Of a stretch of DNA of 64,000 nucleotides, positions 2,238 to 36,063 are shown piece after piece. Origin of the DNA: Psychroserpens ponticola (GTDB lineage Bacteria > Bacteroidota > Bacteroidia > Flavobacteriales > Flavobacteriaceae); contig NZ_CP116221.1 of assembly GCF_023556315.2 (NCBI RefSeq), positions 1,251,001 through 1,315,000 on the forward strand. Reading direction: 5' to 3'. Below the pieces are notes generated by a model. It did no database searches, had not been told where the DNA came from, and saw only the letters and a list, made by a program, of their open reading frames with translations. The position numbers and the translations under genes were made by a program. Position 1 is the stretch's first letter. Every line of letters starts with the position of its first letter.

Positions 2238-5069
2238 CTAATTTAATTCTTTTTTCAAGAATTTAGCAGTGTAACTCTTTTTATCTTTAATTATCTCTTC
2301 AGGAGTTCCTTTTGCAACGATGTTTCCACCGCCTTGTCCACCTTCATAACCAATATCAATTATATGATCTGCCATTTTAATCACATCTAAGTTGTGTTCA
2401 ATGATTAAAACCGTATTTCCTTTATCTACCAATTTGTTCAGGACTAACATTAAGACTCTAATATCTTCAAAATGCAAGCCAGTAGTTGGCTCATCTAAAA
2501 TATAGAAGGTATTTCCTGTGTCACGTTTGCTAAGTTCTGTAGCCAATTTAATTCGCTGTGCTTCACCACCAGAAAGCGTTGTGCTTTGTTGGCCAAGCGT
2601 GATATAGCCTAAGCCAACATCGACGATTGTTTTTAGTTTTTTATGAATCTTTGGTATGTGTTCAAAGAAGTCGACAGCCTCGTTCATGGTCATATTGAGA
2701 ACATCACTAATTGATTTCCCTTTATAGCGAATTTCAAGAGTTTCTCTATTAAATCGTTTGCCTTGACAGGTTTCACATTCGACATAAACGTCTGGAAGGA
2801 AATTCATTTCAATTACACGTAAACCACCACCTTGACAGGTTTCACATCGACCACCTTTAACATTAAAACTAAAGCGACCTGGTTTATAACCTCTAATTAA
2901 AGCTTCAGGAATTTTAGCAAACAAACTTCGTATTTCGCTAAATGTACCTGTGTACGTTGCTGGATTACTTCTTGGCGTTCTTCCAATTGGAGATTGGTTA
3001 ATGTCAATCACTTTATCAATATGCTCTAATCCTTTAATGCTTTTGTAAGGCATTGGTATTTTGACGCCATTAAAGTAATAGGCATTCATTATTGGATAAA
3101 GTGTTTCATTAATGAGTGTTGATTTTCCACTTCCTGAAACACCAGTTATACCAATCATTTTTCCTAAAGGAAGGCTTATCGAAACGTTTTTTAAATTGTT
3201 TCCTGTACAACCTTTAAGTTCAATTTTTTTACCATTCCCTTTTCGTCGTTTTTTCGGAACAGGAATTTCTTTTTGACCATTGAGATAATCTGCGGTTAAA
3301 GTTTTGTGAGTTAGTAATTCTTCAGGAGTACCAATACTGATAATTTCTCCACCAAATTTCCCTGCTTTCGGACCAATATCTATGACATAATCTGCACGTT
3401 CTATCATGTCTTTATCATGTTCTACAACAATTACAGAATTGCCAATATCTCGAAGCGCGACTAAGGAATTGATTAATTTTTCGTTATCACGTTGGTGCAA
3501 ACCAATACTTGGTTCATCTAAAATATAAAGTACACCTACCAATTGTGAACCGATTTGAGTTGCTAATCTAATGCGTTGTGCTTCTCCACCTGATAGTGAT
3601 TTTGAACTTCTATTAAGTGATAAATAATCTAAACCAACATCTAATAAAAATTTCGATCTTGCTTTAATTTCTTTTATAATTTCTTCAGCAATTTTGAATT
3701 GTTTTTCACTAAGGTTGTTTTCTAAATCTTCAAACCATGCAGCAAAATCTACAATATCTTTATCAGCAAGTTCTCCGATGTTAAGCCCGTTGACCTTAAA
3801 ATACAGCGATTCTTTTCTAAGCCTTGAGCCTTCACAAGTTGGACAAGAGACTTTGTCCATGTATTCTTTTGCCCAACGTTTAAGCGATGTTGTTTCTGCA
3901 TTTTTATACTGACTTTCAATAAAGTTAGCAACACCTTCAAATTCTATTTTATAATCACGAGTTACACCTAAGCTTTTACTTTCAACTGAAAACTTATCGT
4001 TTCCACCATGCATAATCATTTGTTTGGCTTCATCAGGAATCGTTTTAAAAGTATCATTTAGACTAAAACTAAAACGCTGTGCTATGGTTTCGAATTGCTT
4101 AAAAATCCAACTGCTTTTTTGCGGACCATGAGGCGCTAGAGCACCAGCATTAATAGACAAATTTTCATCTGGAACAATTTTATTTTCGTTGACCTGATAT
4201 AAAGTTCCAATCCCATTACATGTCTGACAAGCACCTTTTGGTGAGTTGAAAGAAAAATTATTAGGTTCAGGATTAGGATAGGAAACTCCAGATGAAGGGC
4301 ACATAAGATTTCGACTAAAATAACGCGTTTCATTGGTGTCATGATCGAGAACCATCAATACATCTTCACCATGATACATTGCAGTATTTATGGTTTCAGA
4401 AAGACGCTTGTCATTATCAGCAGTATCATCAATTTTCAGTCGGTCAATGACAATTTCAATGTCATGCATTTTGTATCGATCAAGCTTCATGCCTTTCACT
4501 AAATCACGAACGTCACCATCAGTTCTTACTTTAACAAACCCTTGTTTTGCAATTTGTTCAAACAGTTCTCGATAATGGCCTTTTCTAGAGCGAATAATAG
4601 GAGAGAGGATGTTAATGCGTTTGCCTTTATAACTCGCTTTGATGAGGTCCTTGATTTGTTCATCATTGTAACTCACCATTTTTTCTCCAGTATTATAACT
4701 GTAAGCATCACTAGCTCGAGCGTAAAGCAAACGTAGAAAATCATAAATTTCTGTAATCGTCCCAACAGTAGATCGAGGAGATTTACTTGTTGTTTTTTGT
4801 TCGATTGCAATAACAGGAGATAAGCCATCAATTTTATCAACATCAGGACGTTCTAAGCCTCCTAAAAATTGTCTTGCATATGCAGAAAATGTTTCAATAT
4901 ATCGACGCTGACCTTCAGCATAAATTGTATCGAATGCTAAAGATGATTTGCCGCTTCCAGACAAACCTGTTATAACAACTAATTGTTCACGTGGAATGGA
5001 AACATCTATATTTTTTAAGTTATGCACTCTGGCACCTTTAACCTCTATGGTTTCGTGGAATTTGCTCAT
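2238..5069 (-). CDS. uvrA: Excinuclease ABC subunit UvrA
   Basis: 943 residues, the usual length for UvrA, the DNA-damage sensor ATPase of nucleotide excision repair that loads UvrB. Two ABC ATPase modules are visible: Walker A GLSGSGKS at 35-42 and GVSGSGKS near 645, with signatures LSGGEAQRI near 493 and 833. The C-terminal zinc finger (GGRCETCQGGG, later VECETCQGKRF) is intact. The first zinc module is unusual: MCPSSG near residue 257 has Ser where the second Cys of CPxC is expected, although the partner ACQTCNG is kept. This may be a lineage trait of Bacteroidota. A -7 box lies about 40 bp upstream. Confidence 0.98.
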   Translation of the reverse strand: MSKFHETIEVKGARVHNLKNIDVSIPREQLVVITGLSGSGKSSLAFDTIYAEGQRRYIETFSAYARQFLGGLERPDVDKIDGLSPVIAIEQKTTSKSPRSTVGTITEIYDFLRLLYARASDAYSYNTGEKMVSYNDEQIKDLIKASYKGKRINILSPIIRSRKGHYRELFEQIAKQGFVKVRTDGDVRDLVKGMKLDRYKMHDIEIVIDRLKIDDTADNDKRLSETINTAMYHGEDVLMVLDHDTNETRYFSRNLMCPSSGVSYPNPEPNNFSFNSPKGACQTCNGIGTLYQVNENKIVPDENLSINAGALAPHGPQKSSWIFKQFETIAQRFSFSLNDTFKTIPDEAKQMIMHGGNDKFSVESKSLGVTRDYKIEFEGVANFIESQYKNAETTSLKRWAKEYMDKVSCPTCEGSRLRKESLYFKVNGLNIGELADKDIVDFAAWFEDLENNLSEKQFKIAEEIIKEIKARSKFLLDVGLDYLSLNRSSKSLSGGEAQRIRLATQIGSQLVGVLYILDEPSIGLHQRDNEKLINSLVALRDIGNSVIVVEHDKDMIERADYVIDIGPKAGKFGGEIISIGTPEELLTHKTLTADYLNGQKEIPVPKKRRKGNGKKIELKGCTGNNLKNVSISLPLGKMIGITGVSGSGKSTLINETLYPIMNAYYFNGVKIPMPYKSIKGLEHIDKVIDINQSPIGRTPRSNPATYTGTFSEIRSLFAKIPEALIRGYKPGRFSFNVKGGRCETCQGGGLRVIEMNFLPDVYVECETCQGKRFNRETLEIRYKGKSISDVLNMTMNEAVDFFEHIPKIHKKLKTIVDVGLGYITLGQQSTTLSGGEAQRIKLATELSKRDTGNTFYILDEPTTGLHFEDIRVLMLVLNKLVDKGNTVLIIEHNLDVIKMADHIIDIGYEGGQGGGNIVAKGTPEEIIKDKKSYTAKFLKKELN

Positions 5070-32175: not shown

Positions 32176-33237
32176 TTACCTATTGAGTTTTAGAAATGTG
32201 TTTAAATCCTCAAAAAACAATGACGGTTTTATCATTGCATAATACGATTTGTAATTGTCTTTCAATTCTTTAGATGTAGAATTATTTACAATGTCTGGAT
32301 TGAAATCTTTCAGGTGAACGGAAACATTTTGTGTTCCATCTTCAAACATATTCCATGCTTCTTTAATAATCCAAGGCGAGAAAATAGTAAATGTTGGAAT
32401 ACTTAAAGCTTTTGCCATATTAACTGCTCCACCTTCATTTCCAATCATAGCTGTGCAATGATGCGTTATGGCTAAAAATTCTCGCAATCCTTTTCCGAAG
32501 ACATCAAAAAAGATGTGTTGTCGCGTTTCTGATGTACAAAAATTATAAACCGTTTTTGCTTCGTCTACCTGTTTCGGGATATAATTAAATAAAATTTGCC
32601 CATTAGTGTGTTCAACAATAAAATCAATCACTTTTGCCATGTGAGGTAGAGGATAGGTTTTATTATCACCACTTCCCAAAACACTAATCATGTAAATGGG
32701 TTTTGATAAATCTATATTTGAATCTAAAAGAAACGTTTTAGAGCGTTCAATTTCTTGAGCAGTAAGATGAATTTTCGGATGAATAGGTTTTGGAACTTGT
32801 TTAACTAAAGGTGCTAAGAGTTGCAACCTGTTTTCAATAGCTAATCCAGCATTAGTTTTAGCTACAGATGCTTCTTTATAGGTATGTGTATAGTAATATT
32901 TTGTATACCATTTATATTTTGAAATTTTAATTGCTGCACCAGAAAATTTCGTCATTAAATTACTTGATAATTTAGAGTATACATCAATAACGACATCATA
33001 TTTTTCTTTTTTGATGCCTTTTAGAAAGTTTAAAAATGTTACTCGACTGTCTTCTATTTCTGGAGTTACAAACAAAAACTTATCGATAAACGGGTTATGT
33101 TCTACAACAGGAAATGTATGTGAGTTTATCACATAATGAAGTTCAGCATTTGGATGTTCGGCTTTTAAAGCTTCAAACAAAATGCTTGTGGTGAGCACAT
33201 CACCAATCATTTTTTGTTGTATTATTAAAATTTTCAA
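32176..33237 (-). CDS. Family 9 glycosyltransferase (ADP-heptose:LPS heptosyltransferase-like)
   Basis: 353 residues. GT-B fold: ILIIQQKMIGDVLTTSILFE (3-22), HYVINSHTFPVVEHNPFID, ISVLGSGDNKTYPLPHMAKV, and the donor-site block HHCTAMIGNEGGAVNMAKAL near 255-275 with FTIFSPW after it. Family members transfer L-glycero-D-manno-heptose to the inner core; Bacteroidota often use them for other core sugars, so the donor is uncertain. It ends the glycan locus and lies 84 nt downstream of dapD on the same strand. Confidence 0.92.
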   Translation of the reverse strand: MKILIIQQKMIGDVLTTSILFEALKAEHPNAELHYVINSHTFPVVEHNPFIDKFLFVTPEIEDSRVTFLNFLKGIKKEKYDVVIDVYSKLSSNLMTKFSGAAIKISKYKWYTKYYYTHTYKEASVAKTNAGLAIENRLQLLAPLVKQVPKPIHPKIHLTAQEIERSKTFLLDSNIDLSKPIYMISVLGSGDNKTYPLPHMAKVIDFIVEHTNGQILFNYIPKQVDEAKTVYNFCTSETRQHIFFDVFGKGLREFLAITHHCTAMIGNEGGAVNMAKALSIPTFTIFSPWIIKEAWNMFEDGTQNVSVHLKDFNPDIVNNSTSKELKDNYKSYYAMIKPSLFFEDLNTFLKLNR

Positions 33238-33321
33238 AACTCTAAAACGCTAAGCGTTATTTTATTATTAATTTACTCAATCTCAAAATCAATTTGAATG
33301 ATTTCGGTGATTTTAAAATAG

Positions 33322-34137
33322 TTATACTGCAACGTCATATTCTCGTAACGCATCATTAAGAGACGTTTTTTTATTGGTACTTTCTTTACGTTTACCAATA
33401 ATTAGTGCACAAGGCACATTGTAATTTCCAGCAGGAAACGTTTTAGTATAACTTCCAGGAATTACAACAGAACGTTCAGGAACGACACCTTTCATTTCAA
33501 CAGGCTCATCTCCAGTAACATCAATAATTTTTGTACTCATGGTCAAAACGACGTTAGCTCCTAAAACTGCTTCTTTTTCAATACGAACACCTTCAACAAC
33601 AATACAACGAGAACCAATAAATGCGCCATCTTCTATAATAACTGGTGCAGCTTGCAACGGTTCTAAAACACCTCCAATTCCAACTCCTCCAGATAAATGT
33701 ACATTCTTCCCAATTTGAGCACAACTGCCAACTGTTGCCCAAGTATCAACCATTGTTCCTTCATCTACATAAGCACCAATATTTACATAACTAGGCATTA
33801 AAATAGTACCAGGAGAAATATATGCTCCATGTCTAGCTACTGCATTTGGTACCACACGAATTCCTTTCTTTTTATAATCTCGTTTTAATGGAATTTTATC
33901 ATGATACTCAAAAATACCAGCTTCAAGAGTTTCCATTTTTTGAATTGGAAAATATAAAACAACAGCTTTTTTTACCCATTCATTAACTTGCCAACCCGTT
34001 TCAATTGGTTCTGCAACTCGTAAAGTTCCTTCGTCTAAAAGATCGATTACAGATCGTATACTTTTAATAGTGGAATCATTAGTTAAAAGTGAGCGATCAT
34101 TCCATGCTTCTTCTATATGTTGTTGTAATTCTTTCAT
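33322..34137 (-). CDS. dapD: Tetrahydrodipicolinate N-succinyltransferase
   Basis: 271 residues, the family length. A left-handed beta-helix of hexapeptide repeats occupies about 100-220 (VRPN... then GAYISPGTILMPSYVNIGAY, VDTWATVGSCAQIGKNVHLS, GGVGIGGVLEPLQAAPVIIE). DapD succinylates tetrahydrodipicolinate with succinyl-CoA in the lysine/meso-diaminopimelate pathway. Its promoter box lies 22 bp upstream, and beyond that is the divergent noncoding region leading to ruvX. Confidence 0.97.
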   Translation of the reverse strand: MKELQQHIEEAWNDRSLLTNDSTIKSIRSVIDLLDEGTLRVAEPIETGWQVNEWVKKAVVLYFPIQKMETLEAGIFEYHDKIPLKRDYKKKGIRVVPNAVARHGAYISPGTILMPSYVNIGAYVDEGTMVDTWATVGSCAQIGKNVHLSGGVGIGGVLEPLQAAPVIIEDGAFIGSRCIVVEGVRIEKEAVLGANVVLTMSTKIIDVTGDEPVEMKGVVPERSVVIPGSYTKTFPAGNYNVPCALIIGKRKESTNKKTSLNDALREYDVAV

Positions 34138-34158
34138 CTTAATTTAAGTCGGTTTTTA

Positions 34159-34166
34159 CAAAGATA
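34159..34166 (-). promoter_or_regulatory. Predicted -7 promoter box of dapD
   Basis: Minus strand TATCTTTG, exact TAnnTTTG match; start expected near 34152, leader about 15 nt. Confidence 0.6.
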
Positions 34167-34215
34167 AGTCTATAAAATTGGTCTCATAATTTCTAATTCA
34201 GAAAAAATAAAAAAA

Positions 34216-34360
34216 TATGTGACCAATTAAAAAATAGTGTGTCTTATAGTTGTGATTATTATATCTTGAGTGTTGTCCCTAATACAAACACTTGAGTTCT
34301 TTAATAATTAATAGCTAATTTTTTAAAACACCTTTCTTTCCCTAGGAAGGTGTTTTTGTT
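34216..34360 (+). ncRNA. Candidate small RNA unit A between dapD and ruvX
   Basis: Begins with a 28-bp element (34216-34243, starting TATGTGACCAATT and ending GTGTGTC) that recurs with three mismatches in unit B. About 110 bp further lies an intrinsic terminator with plus-strand T tract (34325-34360). dapD and ruvX diverge, so neither needs a terminator here; that argues for an independent plus-strand transcript of roughly 105 nt. Within it AGTGTT and AACACT could form a stem (34270-34294 region). No significant ORF. The shared element is presumably promoter or operator, though it lacks a TAnnTTTG box. Confidence 0.5.
34325..34360 (+). terminator. Intrinsic terminator of unit A
   Basis: 10-bp stem AAAACACCTT (34325-34334)/AAGGTGTTTT (34347-34356), 12-nt loop, then TTTTTGTTTT on the plus strand. 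Confidence 0.8.
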
Positions 34361-34374
34361 TTATTAATTCCTGA

Positions 34375-34513
34375 TATGTGACCAATTGAAAAAAGGTGTG
34401 TCATAATAGTATAACATGAACTGTTTAAGGTAGAGGGTAAACAAGTTTATGGATGATTATTAATGGTTGATTATTTTGAAACGCTTCTTTGACCTACAAA
34501 GAAGCGTTTTTTT
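34375..34513 (+). ncRNA. Candidate small RNA unit B between dapD and ruvX
   Basis: Second copy of the 28-bp element at 34375-34402 (TATGTGACCAATT...GTGTGTC), starting 159 bp after the first. A strong plus-strand terminator follows at 34478-34513, so the distance from element end to terminator stem end (108 nt) nearly equals that in unit A (113 nt), while the transcribed bodies differ in sequence. The body includes a G-rich patch (GGTAGAGGG) and no convincing ORF. An alternative is a ruvX leader with an attenuator, but ruvX has its own -7 box after this terminator. Confidence 0.5.
34478..34513 (+). terminator. Intrinsic terminator of unit B
   Basis: Perfect 13-bp stem AAACGCTTCTTTG (34479-34491)/CAAAGAAGCGTTT (34497-34509), 5-nt loop, followed by a plus-strand T tract; the opposite strand has only three T residues after the stem. 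Confidence 0.9.
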
Positions 34514-34526
34514 GCTTTATAAGAAT

Positions 34527-34534
34527 TACTTTTG
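34527..34534 (+). promoter_or_regulatory. -7 box of ruvX, 4 nt before the start codon
   Basis: TACTTTTG followed by CAAT and the ATG at 34539. Initiation would be at or next to the start codon, predicting a leaderless ruvX mRNA. Confidence 0.5.
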
Positions 34535-34538
34535 CAAT

Positions 34539-34952
34539 ATGGCAAGATTACTAGCAATAGATTATGGTACAAAACGAACAGGTGTTGCTGTAACAGATGA
34601 GTTACAGATTATTGCTTCTGGTTTGACTACAGTTGATACCAAAGAATTAATTGGGTTTTTAAAGGCCTATATTTCTGAAGAATCAGTTGAATTATTTATT
34701 GTTGGAGAACCAAAGCAAATGAATTTTGAATCGTCTGAAAGTGAAGTGCATATTTCTAAGTTTTTAGAAAAATTAAAAAAAGCATGCCCAGATATTCCTA
34801 TTAAAAGAATAGATGAGCGCTTTACTTCTAAAATAGCATTTCAAACTATGATTGATAGCGGACTTAATAAAAAGCAACGCAAAAACAAAGCTTTAGTAGA
34901 TGAGATTAGTGCAACAATAATTCTTCAAAGTTACTTGTATAATCAATCTTAA
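34539..34952 (+). CDS. ruvX: RuvX/YqgF-family pre-16S rRNA nuclease
   Basis: 137 residues from the ATG at 34539, the family length; the in-frame extension upstream would read through the unit B terminator hairpin and is rejected. RNase H-like fold: LLAIDYGTKRTGVAVTD (catalytic Asp in the first strand), LFIVGEPKQMNF, RIDERFTSKIAFQTM and DEISATIILQSYL with the last Asp. YqgF/RuvX processes the 5' end of 16S rRNA in E. coli. Followed 65 nt later by def. Confidence 0.94.
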   Translation: MARLLAIDYGTKRTGVAVTDELQIIASGLTTVDTKELIGFLKAYISEESVELFIVGEPKQMNFESSESEVHISKFLEKLKKACPDIPIKRIDERFTSKIAFQTMIDSGLNKKQRKNKALVDEISATIILQSYLYNQS

Positions 34953-34989
34953 TTAAATATTAAAAGTTATAAAATCAGAATAAGAATTG

Positions 34990-34997
34990 TATTTTTG
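34990..34997 (+). promoter_or_regulatory. Predicted -7 promoter box of the def-DUF5606-mazG operon
   Basis: TATTTTTG, exact TAnnTTTG match, 20 bp before the def ATG. Confidence 0.6.
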
Positions 34998-35017
34998 CAA
35001 TCGAAAAATTAGATTAG

Positions 35018-35608
35018 ATGATATTACCAATTGTTGCTTATGGCGACCCAGTTTTAAGAAAAAAAGCAGAATCAATTACTAAGGATTATCCAAAACTAGA
35101 TGCGCTTTTAGAGAATATGAAAGAGACGATGTATGGTGCTTTTGGTGTAGGGTTAGCTGCGCCACAAATAGGATTGCCTATTCGCTTATTTTTAGTTGAC
35201 ACATCTCCTTTTGCTGAAGATGAAGAATTTACTGAAGAAGAGCAGGAGACTTTGAAAAAATTCAAACGTACATTTATAAATGCTGAAATCATTGAAGAAG
35301 AAGGAGATGAGTGGGCTTTTAATGAAGGCTGCTTAAGTATTCCTGATGTTCGCGAAGATGTTTTTAGACAACCAAAAATAAAAATTCAGTATCAAGATGA
35401 AAATTTTGAAACGCATACTGAAGAATTTGACGGTTTGATTGCGAGAGTGATTCAGCATGAATACGATCATATTGATGGTATTTTATTTACAGATAAATTA
35501 TCATCATTAAAAAAACGTTTGATAAAAGGAAAATTATCAAACATTTCAAAAGGAAAAATAAATGTAGATTATAGAATGCGTTTCCCTGCTTTAAAAAAGA
35601 AACGATAA
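35018..35608 (+). CDS. def: Peptide deformylase
   Basis: 196 residues. The three catalytic motifs are intact: GVGLAAPQIG (about 45-54), EGCLSIP (metal-binding Cys, near 107) and QHEYDHIDG (HExxH, near 147-155). It removes the N-formyl group from nascent polypeptides using Fe2+ or another divalent metal. An acidic insertion (EDEEFTEEEQET) between motifs 1 and 2 is typical of Bacteroidota versions. First gene of an operon with DUF5606 (26 nt) and mazG. Confidence 0.97.
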   Translation: MILPIVAYGDPVLRKKAESITKDYPKLDALLENMKETMYGAFGVGLAAPQIGLPIRLFLVDTSPFAEDEEFTEEEQETLKKFKRTFINAEIIEEEGDEWAFNEGCLSIPDVREDVFRQPKIKIQYQDENFETHTEEFDGLIARVIQHEYDHIDGILFTDKLSSLKKRLIKGKLSNISKGKINVDYRMRFPALKKKR

Positions 35609-35634
35609 CACAAAAAAATCATAGCATATAAATT

Positions 35635-36063
35635 ATGAGTTTAGATAAAATACTTTCCATTTCAGGAAAACCAGGATTATATAAAATTATCGCACAAACA
35701 AGAAATGGCTTTGTTGCAGAATCTTTAATTGACCAAAGAAAGGTGAATGTTAATATTCATAGTAACGTGAGCATTCTTAGTGAAATTGCAGTGTATACAT
35801 TAACTGAAGAGTTGCCATTAAGAGAGGTTCTTAAAAAGGTAATGGAAAAAGAAAGCGGTAATCAAACATCGATTAGCCATAAAGATTCTAAAGATACTTT
35901 AGAGGAGTATTTCTTTGAAGTATTACCCGATTATGATGAAGATCGTGTATACGCTAGTGATATCAAAAAAATCATTCAATGGTATAACTTACTTCAAAAG
36001 CATGATATGTTAGATGCTTTAGAAGAAGACAAAGAAGTTATTGCTTCTGAAGAGGAAGAATAA
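35635..36063 (+). CDS. DUF5606 domain-containing protein
   Basis: 142 residues. The N-terminal 50 residues (LDKILSISGKPGLYKIIAQT, then GFVAESLIDQRKV) form the DUF5606 beta-domain known only from Bacteroidota; the C-terminal part is acidic and helical, ending in EEDKEVIASEEEE. No enzymatic motif. It is consistently found, as here, between peptide deformylase and mazG, which suggests a link to translation or nucleotide quality control, but no function is established. Confidence 0.9.
   Translation: MSLDKILSISGKPGLYKIIAQTRNGFVAESLIDQRKVNVNIHSNVSILSEIAVYTLTEELPLREVLKKVMEKESGNQTSISHKDSKDTLEEYFFEVLPDYDEDRVYASDIKKIIQWYNLLQKHDMLDALEEDKEVIASEEEE

Follow-up and report, generated by a model that had tools for sequence, protein, structure and literature searches.

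Tandem units of probable small RNA genes with a predicted ECF-type promoter between dapD and ruvX in Psychroserpens ponticola

The window, meaning the whole 64-kb stretch of Psychroserpens ponticola DNA that was analysed, contains a spacer between the divergent genes dapD and ruvX that holds two tandem units (Table 1), each composed of a short element followed by a body of approximately 75 nt and an intrinsic terminator. A sequence-only reading had described the element as 28 bp present twice with three mismatches at a distance of 159 bp, which was confirmed, and the repeat was delimited as 32 nt (34215-34246 and 34374-34405) with 88% identity. Comparison with relatives narrowed the core to GTGAC-N15-GTGTC, mostly with T before and TTAA after it, in which the N15 linker varied freely in sequence and was constant in length. 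The terminator scan recovered the plus-strand intrinsic terminator claimed after each copy, the bodies between the repeats differed as described, and of the claimed spacing of 108-113 nt the value held for unit 1 (109 nt from element start to terminator stem start) and failed for unit 2 (104 nt). Seven terminator-like sites were present in positions 33000-36000 compared to a shuffle mean of 1.2. The core with up to one mismatch matched twice in the 64-kb window, both exactly, versus 0.82 expected; as 22 of 100 shuffles had at least two matches, the element count is weak evidence if the window is taken alone.

Table 1. Features of the dapD-ruvX spacer and the ECF sigma gene of P. ponticola. Positions are those of the window except for the ECF sigma gene.
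Feature	Position	Strand	Basis or remark
dapD, tetrahydrodipicolinate N-succinyltransferase, left neighbor	33322..34137	-	NCBIfam PRK11830, 365 bits vs cutoff 204
Spacer dapD-ruvX, holds both RNA units	34138-34538		divergent neighbors
dapD -7 box TATCTTTG (TAnnTTTG), outside the RNA units	34159..34166	-	genus spacers
Element 1 (GTGAC-N15-GTGTC), predicted to be the ECF-type promoter of small RNA 1, with GTGAC as -35 and GTGTC as -10	34219..34243	+	pattern, comparison
Small RNA 1 (RNA1), predicted, approximate start	34249..34361	+	fold, covariation
RNA1 invariant segment, part of (ATTAATAGCTAATT), possible seed	34307..34320	+	invariant in 19/19 aligned sequences
RNA1 intrinsic terminator stem	34325-34356	+	terminator scan
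Element 2 (GTGAC-N15-GTGTC), predicted to be the ECF-type promoter of RNA3, the second small RNA	34378..34402	+	pattern, comparison
Second small RNA (RNA3), predicted, approximate start	34408..34514	+	fold, covariation
GTTTAAGGTAGAGGGT segment shown by the RNA3 hairpin, possible pairing site	34423..34438	+	exact in 16/20 genus sequences
RNA3 intrinsic terminator, 13-nt arms 100% complementary, 5 nt between	about 34479-34509	+	terminator scan, covarying pairs
ruvX -7 box TACTTTTG, past both terminators and 4 nt from the ATG	34527..34534	+	genus spacers
ruvX, Holliday junction resolvase RuvX, right neighbor	34539..34952	+	NCBIfam TIGR00250, 72.5 bits vs cutoff 43.25
ECF sigma gene (locus L052)	G000:C1:2281790-2282389	-	Pfam Sigma70_r2 and r4

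The promoters of the neighboring genes were recognizable from TAnnTTTG, which is described as the -7 box of the primary sigma factor in this phylum (PMC9723704; PMC7366714). All 20 genus spacers had this box close to dapD on the minus strand, and 19 had it ahead of ruvX, there always 4 nt from the ATG and past the last terminator. With its own box after the last terminator, ruvX need not depend on the units, and as the boxes of both genes lie outside the units, these look like stand-alone RNA genes rather than ruvX leaders. None of 98 instances of the element had TAnnTTTG within 35 nt downstream, in agreement with the earlier observation that the element lacks the usual box.

The predicted fold of RNA1 includes an outer stem (34249-34261/34302-34315) and an apical hairpin (34265-34274/34287-34296) with the loop GUCCCUAAUACA, followed by the terminator, and that of RNA3 a hairpin (34415-34427/34438-34451) with an exposed G-rich loop, likewise followed by the terminator. 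Fold z-scores were -7.3 for the whole RNA1 and -4.0 minus its terminator, and -6.1 and -3.15, respectively, for RNA3. In an alignment of 20 RNA3 sequences, eight of 26 pairs (the RNAalifold structure with one pair added by hand) changed on both sides versus 3.8 in shuffles, including 4 of the 12 pairs of the hairpin, and none of 500 shuffles reached any of five covariation measures. For RNA1 (19 sequences, excluding the decayed copy of genome G002), changes on both sides were identified in 7/21 pairs and four of the five measures were reached by at most five of 500 shuffles; the measure of further pair types was not unusual, being reached in 472 of the 500. Both-side changes occurred in four of the five pairs of the RNA1 apical stem, and the outer stem hardly varied and was therefore barely tested by covariation. 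Taken together, eight of the ten measures for the two RNAs were reached by 0/500 shuffles, in tests that are inflated by kinship among the sequences. No Rfam family matched at gathering score in the whole 64-kb window. Sixteen matches obtained in the spacer at relaxed thresholds fell far below the gathering scores, mostly covered terminator hairpins, and were taken as chance; the top one was PyrG_leader with 32 bits compared to the required 65. Each unit combines a promoter-like element of its own, no ORF, an intrinsic terminator, and a conserved fold, as expected of a small RNA gene.

The units were conserved in most of the genus. Spacer DNA was matched in 21 of 23 Psychroserpens genomes (the misses being G007 and G022), and 20 whole spacers were extracted. 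Two or three units were present in the dapD-ruvX spacer of 19/23 genomes and one more genome, G015, had its units divided between two contigs, with spacer matches and elements on both. This architecture, in 20 of the 23 genomes including the split one, and the covarying hairpins support the earlier proposal of two co-regulated small RNAs. The extracted spacers carried two or three elements each with up to one mismatch, and G002 had only one exact element. Three body families were distinguished by eye and alignment: RNA1 and RNA3, to which the first and second units of the window belong, and RNA2, which the window lacks. RNA3 was the unit adjoining ruvX in 20/20 spacers. An extra terminator-bearing stretch with no clean element was seen by eye between RNA2 and RNA3 in G005, G020, and G021 (L033, L032, and L034, respectively) and is possibly a unit whose promoter was lost. 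The RNA3 core was also identified in 17 loci of named genome records, including ten from Psychroserpens and five further records from two Algicola MAGs, a Bacteroidia bacterium, a Flavobacteriales bacterium, and Arcticiflavibacter. Matches to the core in Paenibacillus alvei and a Chitinophagaceae MAG, neither of which matches the RNA3 model, were taken as chance.

Over its whole length, the P. ponticola genome contains 15 exact copies of GTGAC-N15-GTGTC compared to zero for the reversed pattern, which is stronger evidence than the count in the window. Two copies are those of the window units and 11 of the 13 others precede ORFs, with a same-strand ATG frame 3-167 bp downstream. The 3-bp distance belongs to an ECF sigma gene whose true start is probably further down. 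The copies at L054 and L056 lie inside ORFs and may be due to chance, only a 35-aa frame follows the element at L058, and a 56-aa frame at L053 is doubtful, with a larger one further on. Pfam analysis of ten downstream proteins identified LysM/BON, PAS and HATPase, DUF2853, sigma-70, and DUF3078 domains, and five proteins were without a family. Only the two promoter halves were conserved between the element sites. A two-box promoter-like signal of fixed spacing is common to the candidate regulon members and the sigma gene itself.

The ECF sigma gene is preceded by the element and followed by a 58-aa ORF, for which no Pfam or NCBIfam match was obtained, and then by a gene for an MscS-type channel (Pfam MS_channel_1st_1). 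Its best NCBIfam match by E-value was SigX (PRK09640) with 105.4 bits versus an equivalog cutoff of 194; the protein passed the sigma70-ECF superfamily cutoff and is, below the equivalog cutoff, called SigX-like only. All of 50 ECF loci had an mscS match downstream in the same orientation, with a gap between ECF and channel gene similar in length to that holding the 58-aa ORF in P. ponticola. Among 48 ECF loci fetched by protein regardless of the element (20 from the genus and 28 from other genera, the best of 72 ECF-positive genomes), the element lay upstream of the ECF gene exactly in 42 and with up to one mismatch in 46. No element preceded the ECF gene in G041 and G166. Exact pairs of the two boxes at spacings of 8-22 in these loci had a spacing of 15 in 42/43 cases.

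The presence of the ECF sigma and the element also coincided across genomes. The ECF gene was identified in 20 of the 23 Psychroserpens genomes (19 of the 21 first searched, and then present in G010 and absent from G022). The 19 ECF-positive genomes of that first set carried 4-12 copies each of GTGAC-N15-GTGTCTWA, the two ECF-less ones zero and one, and the reversed pattern matched twice over the same 21 genomes. The ECF-less genus members had a 93-bp spacer with no unit (G007), a 1205-bp spacer with no element (G022), and a decayed array with one exact element (G002). The G022 spacer (L235) has repetitive frames (FRLPSSVFRLPSSVFRL) upstream of ruvX, which suggests a minisatellite. A family survey of 199 genomes from 198 genera with preset cut-offs (ECF E <=1e-45 and the pattern GTGAC-N15-GTGTCTWA) assigned 69 genomes to ECF plus element, five to ECF only, five to element only, and 120 to neither (Fisher p 6e-41, with shared ancestry ignored), and the pattern had approximately 266 matches in the 199 genomes versus 10 for its reversed form. 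The ECF-only genomes, defined by no exact element, were G040, G091, G140, G171, and G177. Four of the element-only genomes (G061, G089, G203, and G204) had one copy each, as by chance, and the fifth (G067) had six copies together with a remoter ECF relative (E 2e-42). This co-occurrence with one ECF sigma supports, at the level of sequence, the earlier suggestion of recognition by an alternative sigma factor, and it would equally be produced by another co-inherited regulator that binds the element.

One such possibility is an operator role for the element, to which an activator or repressor protein would bind, with the RNAs made by the primary sigma factor from ordinary promoters. The direct-repeat-like TGTGAC/TGTGTC halves are 20 bp apart, that is, about two helical turns, and could be bound by a dimer. 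This explanation is nevertheless unlikely, as TAnnTTTG was absent from the 35 nt downstream of all 98 elements though dapD and ruvX both have it, and as the element co-occurs with the ECF sigma and precedes its gene in all but two of the 48 loci. The constant distance of 15 bp and the GTC at the -10 position also agree with an ECF promoter, which counts against an operator.

The dapD-ruvX site was also compared in 26 ECF-positive genomes of other genera (30 minus four of the genus), where the two genes were divergent in 26/26. N15 elements with terminator-bearing units were identified there in seven (G030, G051, G104, G106, G118, G162, and G178), the terminators being assigned by script for G030, G106, and G162 and by eye for the others. 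A like unit with a spacing of 16 was present in G143 and the element lay ahead of a small exported-protein gene in G196; no element within one mismatch was found at this site in the other 17. As N15 units occur at dapD-ruvX in seven of 26 genomes, the ECF sigma does not need an array there, and an array at this site is one lineage-dependent home of the regulon and no fixed part of it. By eye, the spacers of 17 of the 26 genomes (L231, L236-L239, L241-L243, L245-L248, L250, and L252-L255) seemingly hold a small exported-protein gene (MKT...) in place of RNA units; the element precedes this gene in G196, and some others show an apparently decayed element.

Covariance models of RNA1 and RNA3 were run on 61 sequence sources, and both bodies were recovered in relatives, as the sequence-only reading had proposed to examine. 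The RNA3 model matched G162, G015, and Arcticiflavibacter (L176), with weaker matches in G051 (E 4e-5) and G118 (E 0.009), and the RNA1 model matched L176 and G162, with weak matches in the decayed G002 (2e-4) and in G178 (0.004). Neither model matched G030, G104, G106, or G143 at E <0.01, and no further copy of either RNA was found at E 0.05 in a 400-kb sample of the P. ponticola genome. These results indicate that the promoter and the place persist and the bodies change. Away from dapD-ruvX, nine successive elements were identified within 1.4 kb in G134, a member of another genus (minus strand of L191, G134:C1:2107000-2112500; 2545-3845 when counted along the reverse complement of L191), and eight or nine of the units had a terminator, with some near-identical bodies and two C-rich ones. 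They probably form an extensive array of small-RNA genes driven by the same sigma. Two units in G041 and G155 (plus strand; L187 around position 2069, L192 around position 1984) were observed to start with GCTATTAATCAATAAA, containing the complement of RNA1 ATTAATAGC, and this start might serve as an antagonist or as a common signal.

The units might also be tandem leaders or attenuators, that is, RNA switches, controlling ruvX, and the sequence-only reading had offered a duplicated RNA switch beside its argument that a terminator between divergent genes has no protein gene to serve. That argument is misleading: the spacer is divergent, yet ruvX lies on the plus strand and might in principle be served by a terminator there. 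Against such a role, the ruvX box lies downstream of terminator 2. The shared strand, the end of the second terminator approximately 30 nt before the ruvX ATG, and the sub-threshold likeness to the Rfam leader families PyrG_leader and PyrR would fit a leader. Control of ruvX is very improbable, as its independent box follows both terminators in 19 of 20 spacers, G007 keeps ruvX with its 93-bp spacer free of units, a similar array lies away from dapD-ruvX in G134, and the window had nothing at Rfam gathering score; the switch proposal was not supported, none of the units being found to lead into a gene. The notion that the units code for short peptides instead of functional RNAs is hardly credible even with a short ATG-to-TAG frame in the P. 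ponticola RNA3, as the longest frames inside the bodies span only 7-21 aa in RNA1 and 10-17 aa in RNA3 (20 genomes) and the RNA3 ATG is lost in several relatives and one- or two-base indels are present, yet the stems covary. Equally implausible is a functionless dispersed or mobile repeat that happens to bear terminators: the units are tandem and the core is dispersed in the genome, to which extent the dispersed repeat without linked terminators envisaged earlier was found, yet both tandem copies have terminators, 11 of the 13 other copies stand 3-167 bp before an ATG frame, only the promoter halves are conserved between sites, and the dapD-ruvX place is kept in several genera with losses in the genus that accompany ECF loss.

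The two units are therefore, with good though not complete confidence, interpreted as stand-alone small-RNA genes, each with its own terminator and its own predicted promoter of one autoregulated SigX-like ECF sigma, whose products would be induced by stress and would likely act in trans by base pairing. From the sequence evidence for the units, element, terminators, conserved folds, and ECF co-occurrence, we infer ECF recognition, transcription, stress signal, pairing, and targets. In the proposed mechanism, envelope or membrane-tension stress would activate the ECF sigma, which would transcribe its own gene through the same element and produce both a protein regulon (LysM/BON, DUF2853, exported-looking proteins, and a PAS kinase) and the two RNAs. 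Transcription of each unit would start from the ECF promoter GTGAC-N15-GTGTCTTAA and stop at the unit's own intrinsic terminator, and the RNAs would most likely pair in trans through the segments that are invariant in them, thereby serving the sigma response as its RNA arms. A more speculative extension, which we regard as possible and rather doubtful, is that a SigX-like mechanosensing sigma conserved in the Flavobacteriaceae feeds an "RNA cassette array" in which promoter-terminator units duplicate in tandem at a fixed site and receive new bodies in different genera. The RNAs would then form a repressive arm that includes feedback on the mscS messenger of the sigma's own operon.

Target searches gave the mscS messenger as the best single lead for RNA1, and it may be put forward as a weak candidate from sequence complementarity. 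The mscS leader of the P. ponticola ECF operon contains a 14-nt perfect complement to the RNA1 invariant segment and, among 367 leaders (366 from the 400-kb sample and the window, plus mscS), ranked first by longest exact complement to RNA1 and second by duplex energy with the segment. It ranked 98th of the 367 by energy with the whole RNA1, 29th by energy and 78th by exact complement against RNA3, and 322nd against the RNA3 loop. Per-genome shuffles of the leader gave a median p of 0.06 in 18 genus genomes (the set without G015 and G010), where the core AGCTATTAA was kept in 14 of 18 mscS leaders and the longest complement fell on the core in only eight. Also against this lead, base pairs of the predicted fold occupy part of the RNA1 segment, and the segment is retained in G051 and G178, where the mscS leader has no complement to it. 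ACCCTAA was observed in place of AGCTATTAA in the mscS leaders of several other genera (genus loci L052 and L060-L078). The 10-mer AGCTATTAAT, complementary to the RNA1 segment, had 79 sites in the P. ponticola genome versus 22 for its reversed form; this excess was dropped as evidence for leader targets because the sites were mostly inside ORFs, with 22 of 30 examined sites within a long ORF on either strand and one free site up to 70 nt before an ATG frame. For the RNA3 loop no target set is proposed, its complement (up to two mismatches) being rarer than the reversed control (172 vs. 298). A kissing interaction between the G-rich loop of RNA3 and the C-rich ones of RNA1 or RNA2 was considered from visual inspection.

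The enterobacterial RNAs MicA, RybB, and MicL are sigma-E-dependent, trans-acting small RNAs encoded by single unlinked genes. The P. ponticola units resemble them in placing small RNAs as presumed trans-acting response arms under an ECF sigma of the envelope-stress type, with pairing deduced here from sequence, and differ in having two or three tandem promoter-body-terminator units (nine in G134) with bodies that vary between genera. Pseudomonas SigX (with CfrX and the MscS-like CmpX) is described as answering membrane stress, with a mechanosensing complex proposed as its control (PMC7641640; PMC8999054). In the SigX-CfrX-CmpX system of Pseudomonas aeruginosa (ECF102), the ECF gene adjoins genes for a small protein and an MscS-like channel, which are reported to be sigma-controlled (PMC7641640; PMC8999054), and here an ECF gene likewise stands beside an MscS-family channel gene, with a 58-aa ORF between them; unlike that system, the ECF gene comes first in the gene order, the SigX cutoff was missed, and the 58-aa ORF is without a family. 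In the same bacterial family, Rfp11 of Flavobacterium psychrophilum is listed as a putative regulatory RNA under the ECF motif SM6 (PMC9723704), giving ECF-driven RNAs in this family a precedent. Rfp11 shares with the units a putative RNA under an ECF-type promoter, whereas SM6 is described by a CGT box at -10 and is associated with T9SS genes as well as with an ECF/anti-sigma pair, with no GTGAC/GTGTC in the main text of that study (PMC9723704). PrrF, Qrr, and other sibling small RNAs also provide several RNAs for one regulatory theme, some in tandem (PrrF1/F2), but are defined as highly similar in sequence (PMC4211561), whereas the units described here have similar promoters and dissimilar bodies. 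The element, the array, or these RNAs were not recognized in the openly accessible main texts searched, and no paper combining GTGAC, GTGTC, sigma, and Bacteroidetes was found within the same scope. What we consider new is that the presumed RNA arms of such an envelope-type sigma are arranged in tandem cassettes whose bodies differ, RNA arms as such being already known.

Small-RNA regulation in the Bacteroidota is thinly charted, and few of the ECF sigmas of Bacteroides thetaiotaomicron are described as having a known promoter (PMC7366714). The data supply a precise promoter consensus, a probable sigma factor, a candidate protein regulon, and RNA families outside Rfam, with the element and the ECF sigma occurring together in about one third of the family genomes sampled. 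The natural losses in G002, G007, and G022 and the turnover of units at dapD-ruvX provide a case for studies of small-RNA origin, and the findings raise the question of whether the Bacteroidota may have an envelope-stress sigma with RNA arms, as is the case for enterobacterial sigma-E.
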